From NCBI RefSeq assembly GCF_000421105.1, contig NZ_ATWF01000001.1, positions 1,747,407-1,811,406 on the forward strand: a stretch of DNA of 64,000 bases. The letters are read 5' to 3'. Shown here piece by piece: positions 35,102-55,518 of this stretch. The notes under the pieces were generated by a model. That model had not been told where the DNA came from. It searched no databases and worked only from the letters and a program-made list of their open reading frames with translations. A program made the translations under genes and the position numbers. Each line of letters begins with the position of its first letter. The stretch's first letter is position 1. The stretch comes from Limisalsivibrio acetivorans (GTDB lineage: Bacteria; Chrysiogenota; Deferribacteres; Deferribacterales; Geovibrionaceae).

Positions 35102-36106
35102 ATGAAAACAGCGGTATTCAGCACCAAGCCCTACGATATGGAGTACCTCGGCAGAGCATTTCAGGATGCCGGTATCGAGCATGAATTCTTCGAAGCGAGA
35201 TTGAGGAAGAAGACGGCAAAGCTTGCCAGAAACTTCGAGGCTGTGTGTATCTTCGTGAACGACACGGCGGATGCTGAGGTTCTTGAGGAGCTCAGCGGTT
35301 TCGGAATAAAGCTTGTAACCCTCCGCTGTGCCGGATTCAATAACGTGGATCTCAAGAAGGCAGAGGAGCTTGGGATAAAGGTTACCCGTGTTCCGGCCTA
35401 CTCCCCATACTCCGTGGCAGAGCACACCATCGGCCTAATGCTCAGCCTCAACAGGCACTTCCACAGGGCGTTCTGGCGTGTGCGGGAGGCAAACTTCTCC
35501 CTCGACGGACTCATGGGATTTGATATGCACGGCAAAACCGTTGGCGTTATCGGAACGGGCTCCATCGGAAGGGTGGTCTGTAGAATCCTCAACGGCTTCG
35601 GCATGAAGGTGCTGGGATATGATATATACGAGGATGAGGAGCTTAAAAAGCTGGGCATCACCTATACGGATACTGAAACGATATTCAAAGAATCGGACAT
35701 TATAACACTGCACACACCCCTGACCCCCGAAACGAAATATCTTATCAATGAGAACACCCTCGCCATGATGAAGGAGGGCATAATGCTCATAAACACAAGC
35801 CGTGGAGGGTTAGTGGATACTAGAGCCGTTATCTCAGCACTCAAGAGCGGCCGGATAGGCTCCTTAGGCCTTGATGTTTACGAGGAGGAGGGGGATCTCT
35901 TCTTTGAGGACCTCTCAGACTACATCGTACAGGATGACGTTTTCATGCGCCTGCTCACCTTCCCAAATGTTCTGATAACAGGGCACCAGGCCTTCTTTAC
36001 TACAAATGCCATGGAGGCGATCGCAGAAACAACAGCACAGAACATAAAGAGTCTTGAGGTAGGAAGGGAACTCGAAAACAGTGTTACAACGGAGAAGACA
36101 GCCTAA
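35102..36106 (+). CDS. D-lactate dehydrogenase / 2-hydroxyacid dehydrogenase
   Basis: NAD-dependent reduction of pyruvate to D-lactate or a similar 2-oxoacid (334 aa). NAD-binding GVIGTGSIGRVVCRIL; catalytic residues in LRCAGFNNVDL, the INTSRGGLVDT block, DVYEEEGDLFFEDLSD (Glu) and GHQAFFT (His). The closest pattern is fermentative LdhA. The end overlaps the convergent PPTase gene by 4 bases. Confidence 0.9.
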   Translation: MKTAVFSTKPYDMEYLGRAFQDAGIEHEFFEARLRKKTAKLARNFEAVCIFVNDTADAEVLEELSGFGIKLVTLRCAGFNNVDLKKAEELGIKVTRVPAYSPYSVAEHTIGLMLSLNRHFHRAFWRVREANFSLDGLMGFDMHGKTVGVIGTGSIGRVVCRILNGFGMKVLGYDIYEDEELKKLGITYTDTETIFKESDIITLHTPLTPETKYLINENTLAMMKEGIMLINTSRGGLVDTRAVISALKSGRIGSLGLDVYEEEGDLFFEDLSDYIVQDDVFMRLLTFPNVLITGHQAFFTTNAMEAIAETTAQNIKSLEVGRELENSVTTEKTA

Positions 36107-36741
36107 AGGATACTCCCGAGAATCCTGAAATCCACAGCGGCATCTTCAGTTGTGCAGAGGGTTATTATATACCCGTCAATGTCAAGGTGGGTGAGCTTGT
36201 AGTCTGTGTCCAGGTAGCGGACATAGCCGGGATAGACACAGGCATCGGACAGCGGTTCCCTGAGCCCCGTTCCGGCTGCCTTCATGGCGGCTTCCTTCGC
36301 TGTCCATAGCCTCAAAAACCGGAGGCCTGCCTCACCCTCCCCCTCTGCCAGGATGTGGGTCAGTTCCATCTCTGTGAGATAGTCCTCAAAATCCTCCAGT
36401 TCAATATCCCGTATCCGCTCCGCATCAATGCCAATCTCCCCTTTATTAACGCACCCTGCAGCGGCAAATCCTTCGGTATGGGTAATGCTGAAATCGGGGA
36501 AGCCATGGATAAAGGGCTTACCGGATTCCCCTTTCTCGATTTTGTCTAATATTGAAGTGTCACCATTGAGTATATGGGTCAAAAGGAGCCTGGAGGAGGC
36601 GTAGTTAATCTTAGGGGCATCCCTCTTAAAGCGGGCGCACCTCTGGCGTGCCGATGGGGGGAGCTTTTCCAGCATCTTCACAAGCTCCCCGTTCAGCGAT
36701 GTTTTGTATCCTCTGATTAAAGCTAGTGCCGGTTTTTCCAT
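36103..36741 (-). CDS. 4'-phosphopantetheinyl transferase, Sfp type
   Basis: Loads phosphopantetheine from CoA onto the carrier-protein serines (212 aa). Family motifs: FSITHTEGFAAAG, GIDAE (Mg site) and LWTAKEAAMKA. Two-domain Sfp-like size, unlike the about 120-aa AcpS. It is the last gene of the NRPS/PKS operon and most likely activates T1, T2 and the ACP. Starts on the base after the stop region of the small membrane ORF. Confidence 0.92.
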   Translation of the reverse strand: MEKPALALIRGYKTSLNGELVKMLEKLPPSARQRCARFKRDAPKINYASSRLLLTHILNGDTSILDKIEKGESGKPFIHGFPDFSITHTEGFAAAGCVNKGEIGIDAERIRDIELEDFEDYLTEMELTHILAEGEGEAGLRFLRLWTAKEAAMKAAGTGLREPLSDACVYPGYVRYLDTDYKLTHLDIDGYIITLCTTEDAAVDFRILGSIL

Positions 36742-36903
36742 TCAGGCCCTGACCTTCTTGTCGCCCGAAGCGAGAAGAAGGATAACCCCCATAACAGGGG
36801 TTAGAAGCAGGGAGGCGAAGAAATAGCCCCAGAACCCGAACTTTTTGTTAATACCGAACATTCCCACAGCGATACATATGCATAGATAGAGAAAGAAGCT
36901 CAT
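36742..36903 (-). CDS. 53-aa two-helix membrane protein
   Basis: Not recognised. Two hydrophobic segments (about residues 2-17 and 25-46) separated by a basic loop NKKFG, with a basic tail DKKVRA. It begins 3 bases after the DUF697 stop and ends 1 base before the PPTase ATG, so it fills the gap exactly, which supports a real gene. The ribosome site is weak (AAGAAGTAAG). Confidence 0.65.
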   Translation of the reverse strand: MSFFLYLCICIAVGMFGINKKFGFWGYFFASLLLTPVMGVILLLASGDKKVRA

Positions 36904-36906
36904 ATC

Positions 36907-37407
36907 TTACTTCTTGTCCGCCGCGGCTCTTGCAACCTTCTGCCCGGTTTTGAATTCCTCTTCGAAATGCTCCCTTACACTGCCGGGGTCGAAGCTGAGG
37001 AATGTTCCGCCTGATTCGAAGTGCTGAACAAAAACCCTGCCCACTGCATACGTTGAAGCGCCGGCAACGATAGGCATTCCGAGTGCGCCAACGGTTGTAC
37101 CCACAACGGGAACCGCCTTTAAAAGACTTGCTACGGGTAAACCGAGGCCTGCGGGGATGAGTCCGCCCACGAGGGAGCTGAGGATGTTCTTAACACGATC
37201 CTTCTTGAAGGGGATGCCGTAGAACTTGGCAAGCTTGTTGAGCATATCGATCTGAACGCCCGTAACACCAACAAAGTCTACAACGGGAATAGGGACGAGA
37301 CCAACACCCATGGCGGCATAAACGTGCTTCTTGACAGTTTCGTCCGCCTTCTCCTTGCGCTCCTCAAAGCTGAGGGTCTCAAATACTGTTTTTTCTGCTG
37401 TTTCCAT
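36907..37407 (-). CDS. DUF697-like membrane-associated protein (copy A of the cluster)
   Basis: 166 aa. Pattern of DUF697/YcjF-type domains: an amphipathic helical region, VPIPVVDFVGVTGVQIDMLNKLA, then two Gly/Ala-rich hydrophobic helices (about 76-128) and VFVQHFESGGTFLSFDP. Function of the family is unknown; such domains are often coupled to dynamin- or Era-like GTPases, none of which is seen here. Start at the ATG at 37407 after GGAGG. It is a clear paralogue of the gene at 52787-53281: both share VP-VD--VTGVQ and QH-ESGG-LSFDP. Confidence 0.8.
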   Translation of the reverse strand: METAEKTVFETLSFEERKEKADETVKKHVYAAMGVGLVPIPVVDFVGVTGVQIDMLNKLAKFYGIPFKKDRVKNILSSLVGGLIPAGLGLPVASLLKAVPVVGTTVGALGMPIVAGASTYAVGRVFVQHFESGGTFLSFDPGSVREHFEEEFKTGQKVARAAADKK

Positions 37408-37466
37408 AACAACCTCCGATTTTTTTATTCTAAGCAACAATCCGTCTATTATATTTTTTAATATCT

Positions 37467-40400
37467 CTACAACCTTACCAGTATACTTTGCAATATGCCA
37501 ACATTCTTTTCTATGTGACCGCTCCTGAGCATTTCAGGGTGCTCTCCGCTCCCTTCGTAAACCGTGAAGCTCGGGGTAAGCTCTTCCCACCCCTCCTTCG
37601 ATACCTTAAAGGGAATATCAAGCTCCATCTCATTTCCTCTAACGTAGTGTATCGGGGCGTTTACTGGCTCCTCTTCGTATCGGGAGTCCATATACCTGTC
37701 GAAGTGCTCTATCGCTTTCAGGAGGCTTTCCCTGTTCTCCGTCTTAAGATATCGTTCATCCACCATCGCAAGATATTCCTGCGCGTTATTACGGTACTCC
37801 TCATCGCTGAAGCTGAACGTCTCATACCTGCGGTAGTTGTCTATGAAGATCATAGCATCTATTTCCCTTCCCCGCTTCTCCAAAACACGTGCAACCTCGT
37901 AGGCGAGATTCCCCCCAACGGAAAACCCGAGGAGTATGAGCCCGTCTTCGGGCTGAATCGATTCCGTAATGTCCGCAAAGGCCTCGGCCGGATTGTCAAA
38001 TGCTTTATAGTTAAAGGAATAGAAGCTGAAGCCATCGATAAGCTTTGCGATATCATAGTAGGTGTAGCCGTATACAGTTCCGGGAGGAAAGCAGATCACC
38101 TTCCGCTCCCCATCCTCCTTGAGGACAAGGATATCATCATCCTCGCCGGTGCTCACTTTCTCCTTCTGAAACAAAAGCTTATCTATATATCTGGCCATAT
38201 CGGCAATGGTCTGCTTCTCGAAAAGCTCATTGAAAGAGAACTTAATGCCGAACCGCTTCTGCAGGTCTTCATGGATGCCGAGGGATGTAATGGAATCTCC
38301 GCCAAGATCCTCATAATCATCGTAAAGATCCAGCGTATCATACCCAAGCTCTTCCCCCCATACGGCGGCTATTATCCTCTGGGTACTTGTGAATTCCTCA
38401 GCACCCGTGAGCTCAATATCCCCAAGCTCATCCCCGGCAATCTCATCGGAGGTGAAGTACGTCTCCCTTATCCTGCTCCCCTCCATCAGGAGGGTCTTGT
38501 TGGGATCCGTGCTTTTCCCAACGGCGGTGTATGACGATTCGGGTATACTGTCGAGGCACAGCTTCGCCTCCAGATTACTAAGAGGGGCAAAGGATTCATC
38601 ACGCACCACCTCAACGCCTGCGGCCATACCAACATCCTTCCACTCTGTCCACGCCAGTGATTTTATCCTTCCGGCTTCATCCCTTTCTGCAAGGGAATCT
38701 AGGAAGGCGTTTGCCGCTGCATACCCCGCCTGTCCGGGTGCTCCCGTGATGGCGGAAAGGGAGGAGGCCAGTATTGTGAAATCCGTATCGCTGAATACCT
38801 CGCATATGTTAAGCGCACCCCTTACCTTGGGTGCAAGGGTTTTTCTGAACGCATCTATATCTGCCGAGCTAAGGAACTTGTCCTCTGCTGTTCCTGCGAA
38901 ATGAAATACTCCGGCAAAGCGGCCGTAGCCATCTTTGAGTTTTTGTACATCTCTGATAACGCTCACATCCGCCGCTTCGGTGAAGATTCTGCATCCGTTC
39001 TTCTGAATCCTGCGCAGTGCAGAAACAATCCTGAATGATCCATCTTCGAGGGTAAGCAGAGCGTCCCATTCTTTCTCATTCGCAAAGCCGGAGCGTGAGG
39101 CGAGCACAATGTCGCAGTTTGCCCTTTCGGATATGTATTCCGCCATGAACAGCCCTATCCCGCCAAGTCCGCCAGTTATAAGATACCTCTCCCCATCGTT
39201 CAGTGGTAGAGGGCCACCTGACTGCTCTTCAGCGAGTATCTCCCGCTCAATACGGTCACCGTTAACACGAAGGCGAAAACCCTCCACATCAAGGAGCTGG
39301 AATAGGTCTTCCGGTTTCTCATCCTGTATTTGCACAAAGCTGTACCTTGTGTTTGGTCTCTCCAACTCAAAGGCTCTGCCGATGGCAGCTGCAGAGGAAT
39401 GCAGAGGAGCTGAGGGCTCCCTTCCGGCGATGATGAGTTCCAGCTCACCGTCACCCGTAGATGCAAGGGAGGAGAGAAACATAAAAAGCCTGTCCAGTGT
39501 ATGTTCCGGCTCGATAAAAATATCGGGGAGCGTATATACGATTCGCCTGTTCCGGGTTGCATAGAATTTTCTCACAAAGCTCTGGAGGTTGTCTTTGGAG
39601 ATGCGCTCCACCCCTACGGGTGCTTCGTAGTCATCCCAGCAAACAGATTTCACATCCTCTCCAACATCACCGGGCTCACCTCCGAAAAAGCAGAGTACCG
39701 GCTGTGTATCTCCCTGCGGTTCAAAGGCTCCGGCATCGCACCACTGCTTGACATGGAAGTAACCCGCCGCCCCTCCACGGCTTCGCATCATCGTATAATC
39801 ATCTATTTCCACAACGACATTGCCATCGGTGTCCGTAACTTTTACATCGAAATAAGCATACCTGTCATCCGAGCCTTTCAGGCGGGAGAACGCCAGACAG
39901 TCGGGCGGAACCGTGCCGAAGACCTTCATCTTCGGGAAGAGAAGCGGTATACACTCTCTTGCTTCCCTATGGAAGTTGAAGCCGATATCCGAGACTGGAG
40001 GATAACAGGGGTATTCCTGCGCAAGGGGTCTGTACTCGGGAAAAACTGAGATTATGCATCCGCATCCATCCGCACCCTCTCCTGCGTACTCAAGGCAGTC
40101 CCATTTATCGCTTACAGAAACATCCCCATACATTTGGTTAAACTCCTCCCTCAGGGCATAGGGCTTTGGAAATTCCTTTTTTATATCGGTACGGGGCATC
40201 CGGCTGGGCTTCTCATCAAGCACTTCTATGCGCCACTCCGCCACTGTGCGCCATTCGCCGTTGTGGCAGTACTCCAGCACACAGTGCTCACCCCTATCCC
40301 CGGGATGGACTGTGACCACAATCTCTACCTCACCCTCGTTAGGAACCTCAAGGAAGTGGTTCAGGCGCAGATCCCTCACAAGCTTCGGTTTGTCTCCGTA

Positions 40401-42404
40401 TATCCGCCATGCCAGCTCAAATACCTGGTCCACTACTGAAGACCCTGAGAGAACCCGTTTCCCTCCTATTTCGTGGTCACTGAATATCCATGATGAGGAG
40501 TATCCGGCGCTCGCCCTGTATGTGGAGAATCTTCCTGTTTTTATTACCTCGTGGTCAAAGAGGCTGAAACGTTTACTTTTCTGCTTTCTGCCGAACCAGT
40601 GTCTATCACGTTCGAAGGGGTAAAGGGGGAGATGAACCCTTCCGGCACTGGTGAGTTCTGCGGGGAAGAGGGGTTCGGCTCCGCCCGCATAGATATCAAG
40701 AATCTCCCTTACTGAATGAAGCTGTCCGTCCCTGAGCATGGCCGCAAGCTCTTCCCCCTTCTCTCTGGCCTTTGCCGGGGTTATACAACCATCCTCATTG
40801 CGCCTCTTGTCCCTAACGATGCGGTGTGAACCGGAAGCCTGCTGATAATCAATATTCATGAAGGTATCAGAGGTGCTTCTATACTCCCTGTCCGCATAGA
40901 TATATCTATGCTCAAAGTGCTCCCTTCCGCCAAGGAGGGTTGCCGACACCTCTGCGGGGTGGAGATCATGCTCTTTTACGTACCTATCCATACTTTCCGT
41001 AAGCCTTTGAAGGGCTTCCGGTGTCTTTGCGGAGAAGGTGAACAGATAGGGTTTACTCTCCTCCGTAATCCTCCGCCTCTCCGGAGGGGTTGCAAGTGTT
41101 ACATGCACATTAGTACCGCTCAGACCGAAGGAGCTCACCCCTGCATAAAGCTCACCGTCACCAAGCCCAGTGTGTTCGCCGGTTGGATACACTGGTGCGT
41201 TATCGAAATCAATCTGGGGGTTCGGGCGGCTAAAATGTACAGTTCCGGGATATATCCTGTGGTACAGTGAGAGTGCCCCCTTTATAAGCCCCAGCAGTCC
41301 GGCGGCGTTATCTGTGTGTCCTGCATTAGATTTAACCGAGCCCACGGGGCAGATACCCCTTTTATCCGTATATGTTTCAAAGGCCTTTGCAAGCCCCTCT
41401 ATCTCTATGACATCTCCGATTTTCGTTCCGGTTCCGTGGGCCTCTATGAAAGACATCCGGGAGGGGTCTATCCCCCCCTGTTTCCATGCATCACGTATAA
41501 CATCCGCCTGCACCTCAGCATCGGGTGCGGTTATATTCTGGGAGCGACCGTTCTGGTTTATCCCGCTCCCCTTGATTACGGCATATATGCTGTCGTTATC
41601 CCGAACGGCTTTATCAAGGGGCTTAAGGAACACGGCCACCGCCGCCTCCCCGCCCCCTGTGCCGTCAGACATCTCATCGAAGGGCCTGGTTCTGCCGTCT
41701 GCGGATTCGACCTCTGTTCTGTTTATGCTCCTCAAAGGGGCCAGAACCAGCTTACATGCACCCGCTATGGCAGTCTCACACTCACCCCTGGATATGGAAA
41801 CGCATGCGTTATGCACAGCTGTGAGTGATGAAGAGCAGGCGGTGTCCACCACAGATGCCGGACCTTTCAGGTTGAGGAAATGGGAGATCCTCGCCGCAGT
41901 CATGGAGGGGGTGAGAAGCTCGAGAAGCGTGTTCGGATCATCAATATCCGAAACCACACGCTCATATGTGTTGAAGCTTCCGTTTCCGCCGATGAAAACC
42001 CCTGTCCTACTCCCGTATATGGCTCTACCTGCATAGCCCGCATCCTCTGCGGCGTGCCACGCTGTCTCCAGAAGGATCTTCTCCTGCGGGTCCATGAGGG
42101 AGGCCTTTTGCGGAGGGATCCTGAAAAAGCGGCTGTCGAACTTGTCATGGTCCTTGAGATAGGCAAGCTCCAGAAAATCGCAACCGGCTGTGTCTACTAT
42201 CATCTTAGTATCACGAACCCTCTCAATGCTGGGTGGTGTTACAAAATCACGCCTATCCATCAGGGCTTTCCAAAACTCATCCGGGCCGGTACAGTCACCA
42301 ATGCGGATGCCTATGCCGATAATGGCAACCTCGCCCCTCTGCTCTTCGTTCTCTATTATCAATTCAGGTTTTTCACTCTTATCTATATCCAGAAGCTTCT
42401 TCAT
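37467..42404 (-). CDS. Type I polyketide synthase, KS-DH-KR-ACP-TE, no AT domain
   Basis: 1645 aa module that extends and releases the NRPS product. Domains: KS 25-440 (C190 in DTACSSSL, H323 in EAHGTGT, H363 in NAGHTD); a post-KS linker 445-605 with no acyltransferase motifs; DH about 612-880 (H644, D806; the usual HxxxGxxxxPG has Ser for Pro); KR about 1000-1265 (TGGLGGIG at 1077-1084, S1215, Y1228, N1232); ACP 1340-1410 (S1371 in LGGDSI); type I thioesterase 1430-1645 (S1495 in GFSVG, D1522, H1622). No AT means malonyl must come from a separate enzyme (trans-AT style). Expected chemistry: one C2 extension, ketoreduction, perhaps dehydration, then release. The start overlaps the NRPS stop by 4 bases. 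Confidence 0.95.
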   Translation of the reverse strand: MKKLLDIDKSEKPELIIENEEQRGEVAIIGIGIRIGDCTGPDEFWKALMDRRDFVTPPSIERVRDTKMIVDTAGCDFLELAYLKDHDKFDSRFFRIPPQKASLMDPQEKILLETAWHAAEDAGYAGRAIYGSRTGVFIGGNGSFNTYERVVSDIDDPNTLLELLTPSMTAARISHFLNLKGPASVVDTACSSSLTAVHNACVSISRGECETAIAGACKLVLAPLRSINRTEVESADGRTRPFDEMSDGTGGGEAAVAVFLKPLDKAVRDNDSIYAVIKGSGINQNGRSQNITAPDAEVQADVIRDAWKQGGIDPSRMSFIEAHGTGTKIGDVIEIEGLAKAFETYTDKRGICPVGSVKSNAGHTDNAAGLLGLIKGALSLYHRIYPGTVHFSRPNPQIDFDNAPVYPTGEHTGLGDGELYAGVSSFGLSGTNVHVTLATPPERRRITEESKPYLFTFSAKTPEALQRLTESMDRYVKEHDLHPAEVSATLLGGREHFEHRYIYADREYRSTSDTFMNIDYQQASGSHRIVRDKRRNEDGCITPAKAREKGEELAAMLRDGQLHSVREILDIYAGGAEPLFPAELTSAGRVHLPLYPFERDRHWFGRKQKSKRFSLFDHEVIKTGRFSTYRASAGYSSSWIFSDHEIGGKRVLSGSSVVDQVFELAWRIYGDKPKLVRDLRLNHFLEVPNEGEVEIVVTVHPGDRGEHCVLEYCHNGEWRTVAEWRIEVLDEKPSRMPRTDIKKEFPKPYALREEFNQMYGDVSVSDKWDCLEYAGEGADGCGCIISVFPEYRPLAQEYPCYPPVSDIGFNFHREARECIPLLFPKMKVFGTVPPDCLAFSRLKGSDDRYAYFDVKVTDTDGNVVVEIDDYTMMRSRGGAAGYFHVKQWCDAGAFEPQGDTQPVLCFFGGEPGDVGEDVKSVCWDDYEAPVGVERISKDNLQSFVRKFYATRNRRIVYTLPDIFIEPEHTLDRLFMFLSSLASTGDGELELIIAGREPSAPLHSSAAAIGRAFELERPNTRYSFVQIQDEKPEDLFQLLDVEGFRLRVNGDRIEREILAEEQSGGPLPLNDGERYLITGGLGGIGLFMAEYISERANCDIVLASRSGFANEKEWDALLTLEDGSFRIVSALRRIQKNGCRIFTEAADVSVIRDVQKLKDGYGRFAGVFHFAGTAEDKFLSSADIDAFRKTLAPKVRGALNICEVFSDTDFTILASSLSAITGAPGQAGYAAANAFLDSLAERDEAGRIKSLAWTEWKDVGMAAGVEVVRDESFAPLSNLEAKLCLDSIPESSYTAVGKSTDPNKTLLMEGSRIRETYFTSDEIAGDELGDIELTGAEEFTSTQRIIAAVWGEELGYDTLDLYDDYEDLGGDSITSLGIHEDLQKRFGIKFSFNELFEKQTIADMARYIDKLLFQKEKVSTGEDDDILVLKEDGERKVICFPPGTVYGYTYYDIAKLIDGFSFYSFNYKAFDNPAEAFADITESIQPEDGLILLGFSVGGNLAYEVARVLEKRGREIDAMIFIDNYRRYETFSFSDEEYRNNAQEYLAMVDERYLKTENRESLLKAIEHFDRYMDSRYEEEPVNAPIHYVRGNEMELDIPFKVSKEGWEELTPSFTVYEGSGEHPEMLRSGHIEKNVGILQSILVRL

Positions 42405-45400
42405 ATAACCTTACCTGCCGCATCAAGGATCCTGACGTATACATCACACATCCGCAGAGCCTCGTCACGCTTGATCCTCTCGGAGAAAACCGCCCGCATA
42501 CTGCTCTGTTCCGGCTTAAAAACGATACCAAATACCTCCGCCAGCCTGTCCATATCTCCATCACCTATGAGGACAACGGGCAGGATACCCTCAATAACTG
42601 CATCACCGTATCTCAGGCACCTCTTTAAACCTTCCTCTACGGAGGCTATCAGGCCGTCCATGCTTTCTGCATCATCAAAATCGACGTTGTTCCAACAGAG
42701 GACATCCCCTTTTACGGAGCCGGCAGGAGCCCGCTCCATACCGTAAAGCTCGGCAAAAAGGTATGCCAGAGTTGCAACCCCTTCCCCTTCGCTAAGATTC
42801 GCCCTTCCATTCATAGGAGCACTCAGCCGGAGGAGGCCGCCCGCCCTCGTTTCTCTAATGTCATCACTAAGGGGGATACCCTCTATACGAATCTTCTCAC
42901 CCTCAATACTTAATCGCAGTCTATCAGCCTGAGATGCGATTGTGCTGAAACGGAAAAGCTCCGCAAGGCGGAAAAGATCGGGGTACTCCTTCTGGAGCCT
43001 GCTGTGGAGCCTGACCAAGAGAACGGAGTTACCCCCTGCCTCGAAGAAGGTCTCCTCGGCAGAGAGATCATCATGACCAAGAACACCTTTCCATATATCG
43101 AAGACAGCCTGCTGGTATTTATCATCCAGCGGCTCCCCCCTGCCCTCTTCAGCGGCAACGGGCATCTTCGAAAGAGCCTTCCTGTCCGCTTTTCCCCCGG
43201 GGGTAAGGGGTATTCTTTCCAGTTTAACAAGCGCCGCCGGCACCATATAGCCAGGGATAAGGGAGTACAGGGCATCCTTTACGGCAGTCGTTTCCGGCTC
43301 ACCCGCATAGAAACCGGCGAGCTCAGTCATACCACCCCTTTCAAAGGGGACAACAGCGGCGGAGGAAACACCTTTAATATTGAGGAGTGCGTTCTCCACC
43401 TCGTTCGGTTCGATGCGGTATCCCCGAACCTTAACCTGATCATCGCTCCTTCCGGCGAACTCTATCTCTCCACGCTCGCTCCAGCGACCCACATCACCTG
43501 TACGGTATACTCTTTTACCGTCTATCTCGATAAAAGCTGTGGAGCTCTGCCCGGCATAGCCCATGCCCACACATGCCCCGCCGAGGTATATACCACCGTA
43601 TATCCCTGTCCCGCAGGGGTTGAGGTTCTCATCAAGAATCTCTGCAGTTGTGTTTATCGAGGGTGTGCCAATGGGGAGCACCGCCGGATAATCCACGCCT
43701 CTTTCCGCCTGAAGCTTTACAGACTCCACGGTGCATTCGGTTGGTCCGTAGCAGTTAACAACCTCCACATCGGGATGAGCATTCATAAACTGCTCCACAA
43801 GCCCTGAGGAAACGGCCTCCGAGCCGATGAGCATACGCCTGAGTGCGGGGAGTTCCGTTTCGCATGTCCCAGCTGAGATCAGCATGGAGAGTAGTGAGGG
43901 GGAGTTATCCATAAGGGTGACACCCTTATCACGTATATACTCAAGGAGAAGCTCCGCATTTAGCACAAGGTCGTCGTGGGGCATCAACAGAGTGTGACCG
44001 CATGCAAGGGCAGAGCACACCTGCTTCACAGAGACATCAAAGGCTCCGGAAACGCTGACCATCTCCCTTACGGGTGACTCAATACCTGCATAGCTCTCCA
44101 GCTCTGTCATATAAACAAGGTTTCGCAGGTTGTCATGGGAAACACGAACCCCCTTCGGCGTACCAGTGGTTCCAGAGGTGAATATATAGTATGCACAGTC
44201 ACCCGTCTCTACCGGTTCGGCATTTATCCTAGGCAGTTCCCGGCAGTTTACGGCCATCTGCCTGAAGCTCAGCGGAACATCGGTTCCGGCTATTATCAGC
44301 TCCACCCCTGCGGTCTTTGCTATATAAGCAAGTCGCTCCTCGGGGTGGTACGGTGTCATGAATGTATAGGAGGCGCCGCTCATAAGTATCCCGAGCATAC
44401 CTGCGGCGAGGATCTCGTCCCTCTCCGCCATGAGAGCCACGGTGTCGCCGGTTCCAAACCCCCTTTTGACTATCTCCGCACAAACTGCCATCGCATCTGA
44501 GCATAGCTCGCCGTAGGTTACGGTTCGTTCGGTAGTGACAACGGCCGGTCGATCGGGGTGCTTCAGCCCGTTCTCCAGGAACCTGTTGCGGAAATCGAGT
44601 ACAGGGAGCTGTGCAGGCCTGCCAACGGAAAGACCTCTGAGCCTTTCGAGCTCATCCTCGGGAATGTAGTCTAGGAAGGCGGTGCGTTTTTCGGGTGCAT
44701 TAAGGGCGGATCTCAGGAAAATCTCAAGATGATGCGCAGTCCGTTCTGCAGTGGAGAGCTTGAAAAGCTCGGTGGAAAACTCAATGTCCAGCCTCAGGGA
44801 ATCACCCGAACGGCTGAAGAAGAATGTCATATCAAAGAGCGAAGAGGAGGTCTCAAGCCCCCTCGTTTTCAGTTTGAAGCCGTCCCCCTGCATCTCTTCA
44901 GAAACGGTATCCTGCAGGATCATCATGGTATCGAAGAGGGGCTGACGGTTTGCCTTTCTTGGTATATCAAGCTCATTCACAATGGCATCAAAGGCACAGC
45001 TCTGGTGATCCTGCGCCTCCGCCACGGTGTTTTTAACCCTTGCTAGCAGGTTCATAAAGCTGTCATCCCTGCTGAAGGCCACCCTCAGCGGGAGTGTATT
45101 TATGAATATCCCGATGGTGTTCTCCACATCGGGGTGGAGCCGGCCCGAAACGGGTGTGCCGATAACCGTATCCCTGCTTCCTGTGTATCTGTACAAAAGA
45201 CCGTAAACCGCTGTGAGCAGGAGGGTATATGGTGTCGCTCCCAGTCTGGCAGCCCTCTCCTCAAGTTCCTTCCAGCTTACTGACTCGAATATCCTGTGAA
45301 TGGATCTTCCTTTAAAGCCCATAACCTCCGGTCTTGGGAAATCCGCAGGGAGTTCAAGCTCAGGAATATCGCCGGAGAATCGTTCCAACCAGTAATCCCT

Positions 45401-48400
45401 GTCTCTGGCGGCGAAACCGCTCAGCATCTCATCCCCTAGCCAACTGGCAAAGGAGGCGTAGTCCGCCTTTAATTCCTTAAGCTTAGGCTCATCCCCCATG
45501 GACAGGGCTGTGTACCTCTCAAGAACCTCCTCTATAAGAAGTTGGAGCGACCAGCCGTCGGATATAATATGGTGCATAACCACAGAGAGAACGCTCTCTT
45601 CGGAGGATTTGAATATGTTAACCCTTATCAGGGGGGGCTTTGTTATATCGAAGGGCTTCGCTGTCTCTTCCTTTGTTTCAAGATCCAGCTCTTCTGTATG
45701 TATAACCTTAACATCTATAACGCACTTTTCTGCAACATGCATAATGGGCTCATGGGGGTCTGCAAAGCTACGAAGTGCGTCATGCCTCCTAGCCGCACCG
45801 GTGAACGCCTCGGAAAGAAGGGCGGGATCCAGCTCCCCCTCTATACTGAACTGTAGAGGCATATTGTATGCAGAGCTCCCCCCCTCCATTCGGGAAAGAA
45901 CCCAGACCCTCCTCTCGGAGGCTGTCATATCCCGCTCCGCTCCATACTTAATGGATGGGATAGAGCTGAACATCCGGACGTTCCTCTGCTTTATTATATC
46001 TGCGATTCCGCCCACTGTAGGGCTTGCGAAGAACTCCTTGAGCCCCACCTTAGTGCCGAACTCCTTCTGTATCCTGCCCATGACACGAACAGCGCCGAGG
46101 CTGTGCCCGCCAAGCTCAAAGAAGTTTGCAGAAGCGGAGGATACAGCAATGCCCAGCACATCGGCGAAGATCTCTCCAACGGTTTTATCTACACCTTCCA
46201 AAGGCTTCTCGGTATCTCCACCATGCTTATCCCTCTCGGGGTAAGGCAGAGCGTTCCGGTCGATCTTCCCGCTTGCATTCAGTGGAAAGGACTGCATGTG
46301 CGTATAAACTGAAGGGATCATATAAGGGGGTAACTTGCGGCCAAGGGCTCTTTTAATATCCTCAGCAGGAAGCTCCTCCGGAGCTGTATACCAGGCGGCG
46401 AGATACTTTGCCCCATCTTCACCAAGGGCATCCGCAACGGCGGAATCGATTCCCTCAACAGTTTCAAGGGTTCTAGCCACCTCTTCGGGTTCAACCCTGT
46501 GCCCCCTTATCTTAACCTGTGCATCCCTTCGGCCAGTGAAAACAAGGCTGCCGTCGGGGAGCATACGACCCGTATCGCCAGTTCGGTACATCCTACCCCC
46601 TTCAAAGAAGGGATCGGGCACAAACTTCTCTGCAGTCAGCTCATCTCGGTTAAGGTAACCGAGTGCCACACCAGCTCCGCCGACACATATCTCCCCCACC
46701 GAGCCTGGGGGGAGGGGCTGGAGATTTTTATCCAGTATGTAGATACTTCCGTTGGGTATGGCACGCCCAATGGGAATGAGTCCACCTTCGTAGTCCGCCG
46801 GAACCTCATGCCAGCTTGCGCAGACGGAAATTTCCGTCGGACCGTAGGCGTTTATATATCTCAGACGGGAGGAATACCTGTGGACATCCCGCTCAATGGG
46901 AGCCTCACCCGCCGTAATAAGCGTTTTAAGCCATGGGAAATCTGCACCTTCAAGGCTGTTCAGGTAGGATGGGGGGAGGGTAGCAACGCTCACCTTCTCG
47001 TGCCTCATAAGCCTTATGAATCGCTCCGGTTCGAGAATTGTCTCCCTGTCTGCAACTATGAGGGAGGCACCGGACAATAGCGCCATGCCTATCTCGGACA
47101 TGGAGGCATCGAAACCGAGGGAGGCGAATTGCAGAACGCGCTCTCCGGCTCCGGCTCCCCATGCAGCAGCTTGGGCAGTTACTGTGTTTACGATCCCCCT
47201 GTGGGGTATGCAAACACCCTTCGGTCTTCCTGTGGTTCCTGATGTGTAAATTATATATGCCGGGTCTTCAGGACTGAGACCCTCCAGAATGAAGTTCTCG
47301 TAACGGTTCTCTGTTATGTTGGGGGTATATACGGGCACCCCGCCTGTGTCGAGATCCCTGTCCGCAACTATACACCTTGCCCCGCAGTCCTCCAGTATGT
47401 ACTTTATCCGCTCTTCGGGATAAACGGGATCTATGGGGACATACACACCGCCGCAACGGAATATGCCCAGTATTACGGCAGGGGAGACGGCGTTCCTCTC
47501 GGAAAGATAGGCGACCCTGTCACCGGGCTTAACTCCGTATTCCACGGCCAGCACACCCGCTATTCCGGAGGAGAGCGTTTCTACCTCTTTATATGTAAGC
47601 CCTAGGCCGACACATCGTACAGCCTCCGCATCGGGCGTTTTTACAGCCTGCTCAAAGAAAATCTCCTCGAAACGCTTATCGGGGATACTCTTCTTGCTCC
47701 CTATGATTGCGCAGTACTCCTTCTCCGGCATGATCCTTAGCTCGTCCAGTGCCTTGTCGCCGCCGAGGGACACATCCAGAAACAACGCTTCGAAACCTCT
47801 GGCCAGATGCTCCGCCTCCTCGTCGGGGATAACAAAAGGATTGTAGTTGAAGAAGATGTTTACATCACCGTCATCGTATTCATCCACCTCTATGGAGAGG
47901 CTCTCCTCCCTCGCTCCCGTGTCCAGAGTGAACATGCTCATGGGTGAGCCACCGAAGTTCTGGTTATAGCTAAGCTTTCTGTAAACAAAGGTTATGTCAA
48001 ACAGGTTCCCTGTGAAGCCCTCCTTTGTACGGCAATCCTTAATGATCTGCCCCAGCGGATAGCGCTGGTATCTATAGGATGCTCTCAGCTCCTTGCTTAC
48101 AGCCAGTGCAAGCTCAAGGAAGCTCCAGTCCGGCTCTATCTTTATGCGCAGGGGCATCATGCTCATAAACATACCTGAAGTGTTTCGGAACTTCCGGTTG
48201 TTCCTGTTAAGGATAGGCATGCCGATAACAATATCATCCTGCCCCTTGGTGCGGTAAAAATAGGCATAGCTAACAGCCAGAAGGAAATGGAAGGAAGTTA
48301 TATCGTTCTCCGCACAGATGCGGAGCATGTCGTTGTAGCAGTAGCGCTTCATGCTTAGTGTGAGACGTTTGGTCCCGAGGGTATCCCGTTCACTAAGGCC

Positions 48401-49045
48401 GCTCTTGGAACCTGTGAAGGAGATGGGCTCAGGTAGATCGGCAAACTTATCGTTCCAGAACTTTGCCCCCTTTTCAAAACCCGGGGATGAGAAATACTTC
48501 TCATCATCCTCCACAAAATCACGGTAGTTGAGGATATCCTTTTCGGGTGTCCCTCCTGCCAATAGAGTATTGTAGAAGCTGGTCAGGGTGTCTGTGAAGA
48601 GCATGTGACCGAAGGCGTCGTTTATTATATGATGAAACTTTGGATACCATACCCAAAGCTCTTCATCCACCTTTATGAGAACATCCGCTCCAAGGGGGTA
48701 ACCGTCGATGGGAACGGGGTTCTTAAAATCGTCCATAACCCAGTCGATGGCCTCCCTGTAGGCACTGGGTGAATCGGAAAAGTCGATAATCGTAGGAGGA
48801 TAAAGCTCGTGTCCAGTACTCTGCATAACACCGTCAGGCGTGTACTCAAGTCTGGTCAGAAACGCATCGTGAACACCCAGGGCAAGCCTGTGTGCTTTCT
48901 TGAAAAGTTCGACATCTACGTGCCCCCTTATGGGCGCAAAGCCTCCCATATTATATTTCGGAGTGGGACCGTACAGAAGTGAGTCAACATAGATAGCCTC
49001 CTGCGGAGAGGAAAGCCTGTAGTTGCCGGACATATCAGCCTCCAT
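42401..49045 (-). CDS. Nonribosomal peptide synthetase, C-A-T-C-A-T plus unassigned C-terminal region
   Basis: 2214 aa, two amino acid modules. C1 8-440 (HHIINDA, H139/D143) stands at the N-terminus, so it probably joins an acyl or aryl starter to residue 1. A1 455-940 (YIIYTSGTTGRPKG; ten-residue code read as DASTIAAVCK, close to published Phe and Tyr codes). T1 952-1020 (S982). C2 1030-1470 (HHIISDG, H1159/D1163). A2 1485-1965 (code read as DVKDISCVEK, no confident match; polar). T2 1975-2046 (S2007). Residues 2047-2214 match no domain I know and may dock with or feed the PKS KS. No epimerase or terminal TE, consistent with hand-over to the PKS gene that overlaps its stop. Confidence 0.95.
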   Translation of the reverse strand: MEADMSGNYRLSSPQEAIYVDSLLYGPTPKYNMGGFAPIRGHVDVELFKKAHRLALGVHDAFLTRLEYTPDGVMQSTGHELYPPTIIDFSDSPSAYREAIDWVMDDFKNPVPIDGYPLGADVLIKVDEELWVWYPKFHHIINDAFGHMLFTDTLTSFYNTLLAGGTPEKDILNYRDFVEDDEKYFSSPGFEKGAKFWNDKFADLPEPISFTGSKSGLSERDTLGTKRLTLSMKRYCYNDMLRICAENDITSFHFLLAVSYAYFYRTKGQDDIVIGMPILNRNNRKFRNTSGMFMSMMPLRIKIEPDWSFLELALAVSKELRASYRYQRYPLGQIIKDCRTKEGFTGNLFDITFVYRKLSYNQNFGGSPMSMFTLDTGAREESLSIEVDEYDDGDVNIFFNYNPFVIPDEEAEHLARGFEALFLDVSLGGDKALDELRIMPEKEYCAIIGSKKSIPDKRFEEIFFEQAVKTPDAEAVRCVGLGLTYKEVETLSSGIAGVLAVEYGVKPGDRVAYLSERNAVSPAVILGIFRCGGVYVPIDPVYPEERIKYILEDCGARCIVADRDLDTGGVPVYTPNITENRYENFILEGLSPEDPAYIIYTSGTTGRPKGVCIPHRGIVNTVTAQAAAWGAGAGERVLQFASLGFDASMSEIGMALLSGASLIVADRETILEPERFIRLMRHEKVSVATLPPSYLNSLEGADFPWLKTLITAGEAPIERDVHRYSSRLRYINAYGPTEISVCASWHEVPADYEGGLIPIGRAIPNGSIYILDKNLQPLPPGSVGEICVGGAGVALGYLNRDELTAEKFVPDPFFEGGRMYRTGDTGRMLPDGSLVFTGRRDAQVKIRGHRVEPEEVARTLETVEGIDSAVADALGEDGAKYLAAWYTAPEELPAEDIKRALGRKLPPYMIPSVYTHMQSFPLNASGKIDRNALPYPERDKHGGDTEKPLEGVDKTVGEIFADVLGIAVSSASANFFELGGHSLGAVRVMGRIQKEFGTKVGLKEFFASPTVGGIADIIKQRNVRMFSSIPSIKYGAERDMTASERRVWVLSRMEGGSSAYNMPLQFSIEGELDPALLSEAFTGAARRHDALRSFADPHEPIMHVAEKCVIDVKVIHTEELDLETKEETAKPFDITKPPLIRVNIFKSSEESVLSVVMHHIISDGWSLQLLIEEVLERYTALSMGDEPKLKELKADYASFASWLGDEMLSGFAARDRDYWLERFSGDIPELELPADFPRPEVMGFKGRSIHRIFESVSWKELEERAARLGATPYTLLLTAVYGLLYRYTGSRDTVIGTPVSGRLHPDVENTIGIFINTLPLRVAFSRDDSFMNLLARVKNTVAEAQDHQSCAFDAIVNELDIPRKANRQPLFDTMMILQDTVSEEMQGDGFKLKTRGLETSSSLFDMTFFFSRSGDSLRLDIEFSTELFKLSTAERTAHHLEIFLRSALNAPEKRTAFLDYIPEDELERLRGLSVGRPAQLPVLDFRNRFLENGLKHPDRPAVVTTERTVTYGELCSDAMAVCAEIVKRGFGTGDTVALMAERDEILAAGMLGILMSGASYTFMTPYHPEERLAYIAKTAGVELIIAGTDVPLSFRQMAVNCRELPRINAEPVETGDCAYYIFTSGTTGTPKGVRVSHDNLRNLVYMTELESYAGIESPVREMVSVSGAFDVSVKQVCSALACGHTLLMPHDDLVLNAELLLEYIRDKGVTLMDNSPSLLSMLISAGTCETELPALRRMLIGSEAVSSGLVEQFMNAHPDVEVVNCYGPTECTVESVKLQAERGVDYPAVLPIGTPSINTTAEILDENLNPCGTGIYGGIYLGGACVGMGYAGQSSTAFIEIDGKRVYRTGDVGRWSERGEIEFAGRSDDQVKVRGYRIEPNEVENALLNIKGVSSAAVVPFERGGMTELAGFYAGEPETTAVKDALYSLIPGYMVPAALVKLERIPLTPGGKADRKALSKMPVAAEEGRGEPLDDKYQQAVFDIWKGVLGHDDLSAEETFFEAGGNSVLLVRLHSRLQKEYPDLFRLAELFRFSTIASQADRLRLSIEGEKIRIEGIPLSDDIRETRAGGLLRLSAPMNGRANLSEGEGVATLAYLFAELYGMERAPAGSVKGDVLCWNNVDFDDAESMDGLIASVEEGLKRCLRYGDAVIEGILPVVLIGDGDMDRLAEVFGIVFKPEQSSMRAVFSERIKRDEALRMCDVYVRILDAAGKVI

Positions 49046-49065
49046 GTCATATTAAAAAAGGGTGT

Positions 49066-50241
49066 CTAGTTTAGTGAGCGGTTATACTCCGGCTTCAGCT
49101 CATTCAGAATAATCTCCCTGTCCCCCTTAACCTGCATAAGGTAGAATGGACGTTCTAGAACCTCGCCATTGGGGGAGAAGCGGTAAAAACCGTTCACACC
49201 GTTATACATCTCTATATATCTAAGAAAGTATGATAGATTGAGCGGCTCGAAGGAGCCTGTGGTTCTTATGGAATCGGCAAGCATGTGCAGAGTATCATAG
49301 GCTGTTGCTGCATATGCATCGGGTTTTACGCCGTATTTCTGCCTGAATTTTCTGACGAATACCTCATTTTCAGGGTCATCTGAATAGGGGTCGTAGTATG
49401 TAAAATACATGGAATCATCGAGGGCGTTCCCCGCTATCCCCCTCATCTTATCAACGGCAGTAAACGCCGCCGCATAGGGGAGGGTTACCCCCATATCACG
49501 CATATCACGGATAAAATAGCCTGCCCATGGCTCATAGCCGGTGAGGAACACGAGATCGCAATCCTCGCTCTTCATATCATGAATTATTTCGTGGAAATCA
49601 TACTCCCATCGGAAATAGGAGCTGTTCCGGCAGATGTCCATATCGTAAAGATCCATATAGTATTTGAAATGAAAGGCGAGATCCTGACCGTACTCATCCT
49701 CCTGCGTCACTATATAGATACGTTTATACCCCTGTTCCGCCAAGGTTTTGACCATCTTCTCAGCTATCATTTTGGTGTTTACGCTGGTACGGACAAAATA
49801 CTCGAAGTCGTGACCGGAAAGAAAGGCGCCGAATGCTCCCGTGTCCAGGAAAAGGAGCTTGGCCTTCTCATACCCTATGGATGTTTCCGCCGCTATGGAG
49901 CTGTCGTAGTGCCCTATCACAGCAAGCATATCCTTTGTCCGGATAAATCCATCCGCAGCACTTCTCGCCTTGTTCTTGTTTGAGGCGGTATCCTTTATCA
50001 CAAGACGCATCTTCCTGCCGAGAACCCCAATGGAGTTGATCTCCTCCACCGCCAGCTGTATACCCTCAAGGAAGAGGTCGTTATTGGTTGAAAAAGGCCA
50101 GACTACACCCACTTTAAACTCTGTGAGGTTGTCGTTTTTTAATGCCTGGGTCCTCATCTCGCCATAATCCATAGGCGTTCTGAGATCGCTTATTATAAAA
50201 TAGAGCAGAACCAGACCGAGTATGTATGCAGTTATCCTCAT
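49066..50241 (-). CDS. Membrane-anchored periplasmic binding protein, LivK-like (type I fold)
   Basis: 391 aa. One N-terminal transmembrane segment (residues 3-20) without a clear lipobox, then a two-lobed ligand-binding fold of the branched-chain amino acid receptor type: VGVVWPFSTNNDLFLEGIQLAVEEIN, DTASNKNKARSAAD, VIGHYDSS, and YAATAYDTLHML near the end. No LivHMGF permease genes lie nearby, so it probably serves as a sensor or scaffold rather than an import receptor. It is 20 bases upstream of the NRPS gene, inside the cluster. Confidence 0.85.
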   Translation of the reverse strand: MRITAYILGLVLLYFIISDLRTPMDYGEMRTQALKNDNLTEFKVGVVWPFSTNNDLFLEGIQLAVEEINSIGVLGRKMRLVIKDTASNKNKARSAADGFIRTKDMLAVIGHYDSSIAAETSIGYEKAKLLFLDTGAFGAFLSGHDFEYFVRTSVNTKMIAEKMVKTLAEQGYKRIYIVTQEDEYGQDLAFHFKYYMDLYDMDICRNSSYFRWEYDFHEIIHDMKSEDCDLVFLTGYEPWAGYFIRDMRDMGVTLPYAAAFTAVDKMRGIAGNALDDSMYFTYYDPYSDDPENEVFVRKFRQKYGVKPDAYAATAYDTLHMLADSIRTTGSFEPLNLSYFLRYIEMYNGVNGFYRFSPNGEVLERPFYLMQVKGDREIILNELKPEYNRSLN

Positions 50242-50253
50242 AGGCTGACTAAC

Positions 50254-51132
50254 CTATTTCCCCAGGATAAGGGGCAGACCTTCGTCACCCGCACCTATAA
50301 CAACGATCTTGGAGTTGTCGGACTTTGCAAGCTCCTTCGTTGCCATAATGCCCTGCCACTGCAGGATCTTATCATCGATACTCTCTGAAAGTAGTCTGTT
50401 GTAGTTCTTAAGACCTTCAGCCTCGAACTGCTTCCTCGCCGCCTCCTTCTTGGCAACGGAGAGCCTGTATTCGTACTCCTGATCCAGCTGCTGCTGGGCC
50501 AGCTTCGATTCGATAGCTGCGGAGATCTTCATCGGAAGACTTATCCGCTCTATGGGTACATAATCCAGGGCGATGAACCTTGACTCCAGCCTCGCCTTGG
50601 AGAGTGCGGAGACCCTGTCCTGGATAAGTTTCTGGGTCGTATATATATCCTCCGGCTTGTTCTGGCCTATCACTGTTCTGATAACCGAACGCACCTCGGG
50701 GAATATGATCGTCTTCGGGTAATCCGGTCCCACACGCTGGTGTAGCATGGGGAGGAGCGGTATGTTCGGATAGTATATAACGGAGTATTCAACCTCAATG
50801 GTGAGGCCGTTGAGGGTGAGCACCTTGATGGTATCGCTTATCTTCTGCTTGCGGACGCTGTAAACATACATCTTATTGAAGGGCCATATAACGTGCAACC
50901 CCTCGCCGTATATCCGGTTCACCACAGTACCGCCGCCGAAACGCCGCCAGAGAACACCCTGCTCACCAGGCTTTATGGATATAAATATCATATCAAAGTA
51001 GAAGATCACGACGAAAATGGCGATAAACAGGAGTATTACAAAATAGGGCTTCTGGTTCTTCATAAACTTCCTGAACCTTTTGAAGGCCCCCTCCTTTATC
51101 TCTGCTATTTCATCCATTCTTTCTTCGTTCAT
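50254..51132 (-). CDS. SPFH/band-7 (prohibitin-like) membrane protein
   Basis: 292 aa. One transmembrane helix (about 30-52), then the SPFH domain (about 52-200: ISIKPGEQGVLWRRFGGG, GEGLHVIWPFNKMYVYSVR, LTLNGLTIEVEYSVIYYP) and a charged coiled coil (about 205-260, rich in Ala/Glu/Lys/Gln). Such proteins form membrane rings or microdomains and hold proteases or transporters. Finding one between the exporter and the NRPS is unusual. Its start overlaps the exporter stop by 4 bases. Confidence 0.88.
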   Translation of the reverse strand: MNEERMDEIAEIKEGAFKRFRKFMKNQKPYFVILLFIAIFVVIFYFDMIFISIKPGEQGVLWRRFGGGTVVNRIYGEGLHVIWPFNKMYVYSVRKQKISDTIKVLTLNGLTIEVEYSVIYYPNIPLLPMLHQRVGPDYPKTIIFPEVRSVIRTVIGQNKPEDIYTTQKLIQDRVSALSKARLESRFIALDYVPIERISLPMKISAAIESKLAQQQLDQEYEYRLSVAKKEAARKQFEAEGLKNYNRLLSESIDDKILQWQGIMATKELAKSDNSKIVVIGAGDEGLPLILGK

Positions 51133-52790
51133 CCTTCACTCCGTCCGTTGCTAATCTCGGTAACTTGACCGAAGTCCATGGAGAGAACCCTGTCCGCTTC
51201 GCTGAAATAGCGATCGTCATGGGAAACGGCGATAACTGTTTTACCACGCTTCTTAAGCTCCGGCACAAGTGTATAGTAAAAATATCTCCTGAAGTGGGGG
51301 TCCTGATCCGCCGCCCATTCGTCAAACACATAGATCTCTTTGTCTTCCAGATATGTAACAATCAGAGCCAGACGCTTGCGCTGCCCTGTGGATAGATTCA
51401 AGTTTGTGAAGCCGCTGTCTTTGAAATCCGTCTTATGATCTATCTCCATAAGCTCCAGAAGCTCTTTCACCTTTTCTGGGTTGACCTGTTGCATGCCGTA
51501 AAGCTTGCTGAAAAGGTGGAACTCGGCGAAGATCACGGAGAAGAGTTCCCTGTAGCTCTGGGAATTCTGCCTCGTAACCTTCGTATCATCAAGCAGAATT
51601 TCACCCTCATCGGGGAAATAAAGGGCAGTCATGAGCTTCATCAGCGTTGTCTTACCGCTTCCGTTTCCTCCGACAATAAAGAGCACTTCACCCCTGTTTA
51701 TCTCGAAATCGAAGGGGCCTGCTGTGAAGGAGGGTGCACCGTCCGGGTCTTTGTATGAGAAGATCAGCTCCTTAAGCTTGATCTTATCGAAGTTCTCCGC
51801 ATTCTCTATCTTATCATCGGAATCAATATCCTCTCCCTTCACAAGAGTATCTATCTTGTCCTCAAGGCCGTAGATATTATTCACCGACAACTGAACCTCG
51901 GAAAGGATGGGGATCTGCATAACCGTGTTGGTTAGCGGTCCTATCAGGAAAAGTATAGCTGTAACCACCTTAACGACGGTATCGCCGAACTCGTTTGATA
52001 CGGCGGGCATGATAAAGACTATCGTTCCGATTAGTACGTAGAAGAACGTCTCTGCAAAAACATAGTTATTTGCAAACTCAAGCATCACGTTCGCTCTGGT
52101 GCGCCGAACACCCCCTGAACGCTTACGGAAATGGCTGCGAACATCAACACTCTTCGCCCTGTTCATCTTAAGCTCTTTGAAGCCGCTGAGGACATCGGTT
52201 ATCGTGTCAAAGAGCGCATCCTCCTCCTGGGAGGATTCATACAGGTTCTGCTCCAGTGTCTTCCGGTTGCGCAGATATATATATGTAGCGAAAAGGATCA
52301 TGGACATGCTTATCAAAAAGGCCGGAATGGAGATAAAGGCGATATAAAGCACTGTGAACATAACCATAACCGAGGACTGTGCCGCCATGAAGATGGAGCG
52401 CATGTTCTGGGATATGGAGGAGGTTTCCCTGCTTATTCGTGTGTAAATATCCGAATCGCCAATGGTCTCAAGGGTTCTTAGATCACACTTGAGAACCTTG
52501 TCCACAAGCCTCGTGCGGACCTTGTCCACCGCCTCCTCTATGATTTCGCTGGAATGATAGAGGAGGTAGCGAAGGGAGTAAATGAACATCCCTATACATA
52601 GTGCGAAGTACAAAAAGTATTTAGGATCAGGCTTTTGGAGGAAATCCGGAGAGATTGCCTTGTTGACCACAGCGAGAAGGAGAGCGTTGGATATACCCGA
52701 CAGGGCGGTCATAATGACCAGCTTCCTGTCTACCCCGCTCGATTCTCTTTGAAGGAACTCTACGGATTTACTGGCAAAGTAGTCTTTCAA
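51129..52790 (-). CDS. Cyclic-peptide-type ABC exporter (SyrD/PvdE-like)
   Basis: 553 aa half-transporter: six transmembrane helices (about 1-310) fused to an ATPase domain with Walker A GGNGSGKTTLMKLM, signature LSTGQRKRLAL and Walker B YVFDEWAADQDP, and the H-loop AVSHDD. The LSTGQ signature and DEWAADQDP are typical of the SyrD/PvdE group that exports nonribosomal peptides. Likely exports the cluster product or an intermediate to the periplasm. Overlaps the upstream DUF697 gene by 4 bases. Confidence 0.93.
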   Translation of the reverse strand: MKDYFASKSVEFLQRESSGVDRKLVIMTALSGISNALLLAVVNKAISPDFLQKPDPKYFLYFALCIGMFIYSLRYLLYHSSEIIEEAVDKVRTRLVDKVLKCDLRTLETIGDSDIYTRISRETSSISQNMRSIFMAAQSSVMVMFTVLYIAFISIPAFLISMSMILFATYIYLRNRKTLEQNLYESSQEEDALFDTITDVLSGFKELKMNRAKSVDVRSHFRKRSGGVRRTRANVMLEFANNYVFAETFFYVLIGTIVFIMPAVSNEFGDTVVKVVTAILFLIGPLTNTVMQIPILSEVQLSVNNIYGLEDKIDTLVKGEDIDSDDKIENAENFDKIKLKELIFSYKDPDGAPSFTAGPFDFEINRGEVLFIVGGNGSGKTTLMKLMTALYFPDEGEILLDDTKVTRQNSQSYRELFSVIFAEFHLFSKLYGMQQVNPEKVKELLELMEIDHKTDFKDSGFTNLNLSTGQRKRLALIVTYLEDKEIYVFDEWAADQDPHFRRYFYYTLVPELKKRGKTVIAVSHDDRYFSEADRVLSMDFGQVTEISNGRSEG

Positions 52791-53281
52791 GCCTGCTTCT
52801 CTTCTCCGCTTTCCTGGTTCTTCTCCTTCTCAAGATCCTCTGCGACTTTCTTTCCTTCCTCGAAATACTCTTTGTAGTAGTCCTTTACCTTATCGGGGTC
52901 GAAGGAGAGGAGGGTTCCGCCGGATTCATAGTGCTGGATAAAAACCTTGCCAAGAGCATAGGCCGAAGCACCGGAGAAGATGGACATGGAAAGACCGCCA
53001 AGTATGCTTCCCACAACGGGAACCATTTTAAGAATACTTCCCACAGACCCTCTTGAGAGTGAGTTGGGGATTATGGAGCCGAGGAGCGATGCGATTATCG
53101 CCTTCCCTTTGGACTCGGAGAACTCCACATCATCATAGTATTTGGAAAGGTCGGAGAGCATCTTGAGCTGAACGCCGGTCACTGCGGCGAGATCAACAAA
53201 GGGTACGGGGATGAGCCCTGCGCCCATTGACCACCACATATAATTACGAACCGTTTTCATAGCCTGAAACTGCTTGTCCAT
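52787..53281 (-). CDS. DUF697-like membrane-associated protein (copy B of the cluster)
   Basis: 164 aa, first gene of the NRPS/PKS operon. N-terminal MKTVRNYMWWSMGAGLIPVP, then VDLAAVTGVQLKMLSDLSKYY, a hydrophobic Gly-rich middle and FIQHYESGGTLLSFDP, with a Lys/Glu-rich tail. Paralogue of 36907-37407. Start at the ATG at 53281, 8 bases after AAGGAG. Function unknown. Confidence 0.8.
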   Translation of the reverse strand: MDKQFQAMKTVRNYMWWSMGAGLIPVPFVDLAAVTGVQLKMLSDLSKYYDDVEFSESKGKAIIASLLGSIIPNSLSRGSVGSILKMVPVVGSILGGLSMSIFSGASAYALGKVFIQHYESGGTLLSFDPDKVKDYYKEYFEEGKKVAEDLEKEKNQESGEEKQA

Positions 53282-53315
53282 GTCTGAAACTCCTTTTTGA
53301 TTTTGACTGCTTTTT

Positions 53316-53321
53316 ATTGTA
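53316..53321 (-). promoter_or_regulatory. Possible -10 box of the NRPS/PKS operon
   Basis: On the minus strand TACAAT lies 34 bases upstream of the first gene. The -35 region (GTTTTC at 17-base spacing) is poor, so an activator or another sigma factor is possible. The intergenic DNA up to 53569 also contains the 10-base palindrome GCTATATAGC (53510-53519); nothing else recognisable. Confidence 0.3.
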
Positions 53322-53569
53322 GCACTTATTATCAAGAAGAAAACCCGAAATTGTCATAGAATATACAGAAATACGAGCGGTATACGATCGGAGCACTCCC
53401 TGCGGTGTGATTCCGTGAACTACGTTCAATAATGCATGTTTACAACTGTTATCAATAAGATAAGCTAAAGGTCAGACCAATCAAGCATGACGATACTGCT
53501 TAATTTCTAGCTATATAGCACTATACGGCATACACCCATTTTCAGCAGTATTCGTTTTGTTAAGCCCCA

Positions 53570-55507: not shown

Positions 55508-55518
55508 GGGAGGAAAAT

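Follow-up and report, generated by a model that had tools for sequence, protein, structure and literature searches.

A barnesin-type NRPS-PKS locus in Limisalsivibrio acetivorans with an acyltransferase-less PKS module and FabD as its probable malonyl source

Results

We analyzed a 64,000-nt stretch of the Limisalsivibrio acetivorans genome (contig NZ_ATWF01000001.1, positions 1,747,407 to 1,811,406), hereafter the window, and found an operon in which an NRPS gene is followed by a gene for a PKS module lacking an acyltransferase (AT). We read this locus with high confidence as a barnesin-type trans-AT NRPS-PKS cluster, most likely the published gvb cluster, in which FabD would load malonyl and the product would contain a vinylogous amino acid. 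The features on which this reading is built are collected in Table 1.

Table 1 Operon genes and PKS domains, with positions in the window and residues of the PKS protein
Feature	Position	Strand	Evidence
4'-Phosphopantetheinyl transferase (PPTase), BrnI-like	36103..36741	(-)	PF01648 3.3e-13; AusB-like 42.8 bits
DUF697 protein, downstream of PKS	36907..37440	(-)	PF05128 2.2e-15
AT-less PKS module, BrnF-like, 1645 aa, KS-linker-DH-KR-ACP-TE	37467..42404	(-)	Pfam domains, active-site motifs
Thioesterase (TE), residues 1435-1627, GFSVG at residue 1493	37524..38102	(-)	Pfam, motif
Acyl carrier protein (ACP), residues 1345-1407, GGDS at residue 1368	38184..38372	(-)	Pfam, motif
Ketoreductase (KR), residues 1074-1256, TGGLGGIG and GYAAAN	38637..39185	(-)	Pfam, motifs
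Dehydratase (DH), residues 636-877	39774..40499	(-)	Pfam, motif
No-AT stretch, residues 445-605: KS flanking subdomain and linker	40590..41072	(-)	PF22621/PF22336 linker matches; AT profile blank at E ≤ 1; end-to-end alignment with AT-less KSs
Post-linker motif LPLYPFERDRHW, residues 592-603, characteristic of modules without an AT	40596..40631	(-)	Alignment, motif search
Ketosynthase (KS), residues 25-391; Cys190/His323/His363 triad motifs DTACSSS, EAHGTGT and KSNAGH all present	41232..42332	(-)	Pfam, alignment, motifs
NRPS, BrnE-like, 2214 aa, C-A-PCP-C-A-PCP and C-terminal tail	42401..49045	(-)	Pfam; A-domain pocket residues
Periplasmic-binding-protein-like gene, in place of the brnBCD transporter genes	49066..50241	(-)	PF13458 7.6e-45
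SPFH/Band 7 protein	50254..51132	(-)	PF01145 1.5e-27
Cyclic-peptide-type export ABC transporter	51129..52790	(-)	TIGR01194, 371.7 bits vs family cut-off 286.2
DUF697 protein, first gene of the operon	52787..53335	(-)	PF05128 1.4e-8

The PKS module lacks an AT and has an ordinary linker

An earlier note on this DNA had described the PKS as a module without an AT or a GHSxG motif, and Pfam, a custom profile and a motif search all agree with it. PF00698, the AT family, is absent from the Pfam matches of the 1645-aa protein (E ≤ 0.1). The custom profile, for which seven ATs of the cis, trans and discrete kinds were used, gave no match in the window (open frames of at least 250 aa, E ≤ 1). The protein contains no GHSxG motif, its one GxSxG being that of the TE at residue 1493. 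The Pfam search and the custom profile were also used to look for a degenerate AT in residues 445-605, and none was detectable there.

The note had further described a long linker in place of the AT. The linker is there and holds no AT, but its length is ordinary for AT-less modules. It consists of the KS flanking subdomain and a LPLYPFERDRHWF motif that lies 152 aa past the KS end, compared with 128-170 aa between KS end and YPF motif in most AT-less reference KSs in which the motif was found; the exceptions are Paenibacillus sonchi modules, with 197-269 aa. Past the KS domain, Pfam places KAsynt_C_assoc, the KS C-terminal extension, at residues 394-481 and a CurL-like/RhiE-like KS-AT linker at residues 453-502, and the linker aligns to its end with the AT-less KSs of bacillomycin D (BamA), Niallia, epifadin and Paenibacillus. 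The linker is the normal stretch of an AT-less module and not an unusual insert.

The DH is matched by Pfam in two halves (residues 636-706 and 813-877), PKS_DH_N at 28.1 bits and PS-DH at 22.8 bits, the latter just under its cut-off. Its His motif, HEIGGKRVLS, is divergent in that the canonical final Pro is replaced by Ser, and a candidate for the second Asp was assigned by eye in PPVSDIGFN. With the DH diverged in this way, by the Ser for Pro and by a half that scores under the Pfam cut-off, it is uncertain whether dehydration would be complete.

The KS groups with AT-less KSs

Placed in trees of trans-AT and cis-AT KSs, as the earlier note had proposed, the window KS groups with AT-less KSs and not with the cis-AT clade. 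The trees, of 46 and 79 rows, come from "quick" searches without bootstrap, and their supports are SH-aLRT values. The 46-row tree puts the window KS in a group of 12 that are all AT-less (support 99). In the 79-row tree it lies in a clade of 31 rows (support 98), of which 29 are AT-less, two are open-ended, being cut by contig or ORF ends, and none is cis-AT. Most cis-AT rows form a separate group (support 100) that also contains three rows scored AT-less. The window KS sits on a long branch (1.0-1.1), and the trees fix no exact sister inside its group. A phmmer search against the PDB gave KSs such as PksL as the top matches, which we take to be trans-AT proteins, and the cis-AT CurL ranked ninth.

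The clade is mainly from Bacillota, of the iturin/bacillomycin and epifadin types, with the addition of a KS from Tistrella and one from another genus of the same family (genome G006). Among 51 Deferribacterota genomes, an AT-less KS of this type occurs in two, that of the window and G006; the KSs of G049 and G015 in the same set belong to cis-AT modules. G049, from another class of the phylum, carries a cis-AT PKS cluster, in which one further KS is not followed by an AT (L043, L044). When the whole PKS was searched against 385 relatives and distant genomes, no close full-length homologue was found; the best matches are 35-44% identical and span the KS and linker, at most reaching the start of the DH. 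A single-protein scan of genome contigs, run with idiosyncratic patterns on a set in which the window's own genome is possibly not included, gave no match, and a scan with a KS alignment returned Bacillota as the best of the matches listed, with no Deferribacterota among them.

Several clusters with KSs in this clade resemble the window cluster in part. BamA, of the iturin/bacillomycin D hybrid of Bacillus, shares the AT-less KS clade, the linker and the YPF motif, whereas its cluster has a dedicated discrete AT (BamD) that the window cluster lacks. The epifadin cluster of Staphylococcus epidermidis (EfiB-E) is likewise a hybrid NRPS/trans-AT PKS cluster with AT-less KSs of the same clade and with PPTase and ABC genes, but differs in its dedicated AT, EfiB, and in several iterative PKS modules (PMC11310079). 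The hybrid trans-AT cluster of G006 (L041, L042) is larger and has an AT-less KS that lies near the window KS in the trees, together with the Tistrella KS. Unlike the window cluster, it contains its own iturin-type discrete AT gene, more NRPS modules and a methyltransferase embedded in an A domain.

FabD is the only AT gene found in the genome

The earlier note had seen no discrete AT gene in the window and had supposed that malonyl comes from elsewhere, perhaps from FabD. Its first point holds, and more strongly for the whole genome (2.97 Mb in 3 contigs, 99.99% complete), in which the proposed search for a stand-alone AT found FabD alone. Because PF00698 and a discrete trans-AT profile (E up to 10) each match one and the same gene genome-wide, FabD is, by homology, the sole malonyl transferase of the genome. 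The gene lies in the fatty-acid operon plsX-fabH-fabD-fabG-acpP-fabF-rnc, named from reading the translations, ~74 kb beyond the end of the window. Compared with FabDs from three relatives in the family and order, the protein shows 60-66% identity, and in a tree it groups with these FabDs (support 100/100) and away from the dedicated trans-ATs. A dedicated discrete AT gene, which is usual in trans-AT PKS clusters but not obligatory, is absent from the window cluster.

Taken together, the AT-less KS clade, the lack of a degenerate AT and FabD as the lone AT gene make trans-AT biosynthesis fed by FabD the best reading, as the note had suspected. With the FabD role published for brn (see below), we consider that FabD very probably loads the PKS ACP in this host.

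The operon matches the published layout of barnesin-type clusters

The operon spans positions 36103-53335 and is ordered DUF697, ABC exporter, SPFH, binding protein, NRPS, PKS, DUF697 and PPTase. The pocket residues of the first NRPS A domain are D-A-S...A...V-C and those of the second are D-V-K...C...V-E, some positions being read by eye; set against A-domain specificity codes, these pockets appear Tyr-like and Arg-like, respectively. Past the last PCP, the NRPS has a tail of ~170 aa (42404-42913) with no Pfam match, which may serve for docking to the PKS. Also encoded within this biosynthetic operon are two DUF697 proteins and one SPFH/Band 7 protein.

Barnesin was first reported by Rischer et al. 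2018, as cited in PMC13096860. The brn cluster for barnesin A in Sulfurospirillum barnesii and its homologue gvb in 'Geovibrio sp. L21-Ace-BES' are ~20 kb in size and comprise an NRPS (C-A-PCP-C-A-PCP), an AT-less PKS (KS-DH-KR-ACP-TE), the transporter genes brnBCD and the PPTase gene brnI (PMC13096860). A starter C domain was reported for brn/gvb, the BrnE A domains are reported as Tyr and Arg domains, and both clusters are predicted to use an aromatic residue first and a basic one second (PMC13096860). No AT is encoded in the clusters, and in nearly every search of the S. barnesii genome FabD (Sulba_0581) was the only AT returned (PMC13096860). Barnesin A was made in E. coli by brnE, brnF and brnI, and leaving out Sulba_0581 lowered its amount only slightly, which the authors attribute to complementation by the E. 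coli enzyme; the reconstitution indicates that FabD is the trans-AT (PMC13096860).

The window cluster has the same NRPS and PKS domain orders, a cyclic peptide transporter (TIGR01194 above cut-off) and its own PPTase (PF01648), and, as with brn, the cluster encodes no AT and the genome has none besides FabD. While brn belongs to the Campylobacterota, the window comes from the Deferribacterota, the phylum of Geovibrio; the phylum is also indicated by a genome of the same order (G012), whose contig C1 matches plasmid DNA of Calditerrivibrio nitroreducens with 100% identity over 8 kb. Compared by published description, the window cluster and gvb showed no difference. Since the operon parts are the same and the pockets appear Tyr-like and Arg-like, the window cluster is very probably gvb itself, an identity drawn from architecture and phylum.

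Beside the cluster, on the other strand (54191-56598), lie a glutamine-synthetase-like gene and, following it, a KamA-family aminomutase gene, the latter resembling arginine/glutamate 2,3-aminomutases with scores under the family cut-offs; the pair might supply a beta-amino acid for use as osmolyte or precursor. Farther along (59273-60886) is subunit I of an aa3-type cytochrome c oxidase (TIGR02891, above cut-off), although anaerobes make up most of what is known of this phylum. Rfam gave no match in the window.

Discussion

A pathway along the lines of barnesin A can be proposed for this locus. A presumed starter C domain, of the subtype reported for brn/gvb, would place a fatty acyl group on the Tyr-like first residue, and the second NRPS module would join a basic, Arg-like residue. 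Housekeeping FabD would then put malonyl on the PKS ACP, and the AT-less PKS would extend the chain by one malonyl-derived C2 unit. Reduction by the KR and dehydration by the DH would introduce an alpha,beta-double bond and so create a vinylogous amino acid, and the lipodipeptide that carries it would be freed by the TE. The likely product is thus a protease inhibitor resembling acyl-Tyr-(vinylogous Arg). The same machinery, FabD loading included, might instead give another product, with residues other than Tyr and Arg or with a beta-hydroxy or beta-keto group left in place. The divergent DH would fit this, as would pockets assigned by motif and partly by eye, but gvb and brn are treated as homologous, with an aromatic and then a basic residue predicted in both (PMC13096860), and we regard such an outcome as unlikely.

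The source of malonyl and the history of the PKS can also be read in other ways. Many close KS relatives, and G006 in the same family, keep dedicated ATs in their clusters, which would be in line with a dedicated malonyl transferase, diverged or non-homologous, that is encoded elsewhere in this genome and loads the ACP in place of FabD. We consider this very improbable, given that PF00698 and the discrete-AT profile (E ≤ 10) match FabD alone in a genome that is 99.99% complete. As related clusters often have their own AT (BamD, EfiB and that of G006), it is formally possible that the window cluster has lost its function. Another reading takes the PKS to be a cis-AT enzyme degraded after AT loss, and the cluster to be dead or recently converted; the lack of a remaining dedicated AT and the divergent DH are compatible with it. 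However, the KS falls among AT-less and not cis-AT KSs, the linker length and end motif are as in AT-less modules, and the catalytic motifs other than those of the DH are intact in unbroken ORFs of 1645 and 2214 aa. We find this history scarcely credible, and the KS tree led us to reject descent from a degraded cis-AT enzyme. The reading that we retain is the barnesin-type trans-AT cluster supplied by FabD.

The earlier note had seen here trans-AT biosynthesis in a lineage where it is not well known. This claim of novelty does not stand, as gvb of a Geovibrio-related strain and the role of FabD have already been published (PMC13096860). The cluster type is real but already known, because brn/gvb clusters of this kind, with barnesin A as product, are described, and the main lesson is contained in the 2026 barnesin paper (PMC13096860). 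It is possible, though we hold it to be doubtful, that the FabD-fed lipodipeptide of this organism, from a phylum with AT-less KSs of this type in two of 51 genomes, differs from barnesin A in its acyl chain, residues or reduction state. Vinylogous amino acid protease inhibitors are a product class of drug interest. The locus would provide a second natural setting, in a phylum other than that of S. barnesii, in which FabD serves both fatty-acid and polyketide synthesis, and the single AT of the genome makes this question clean to test.
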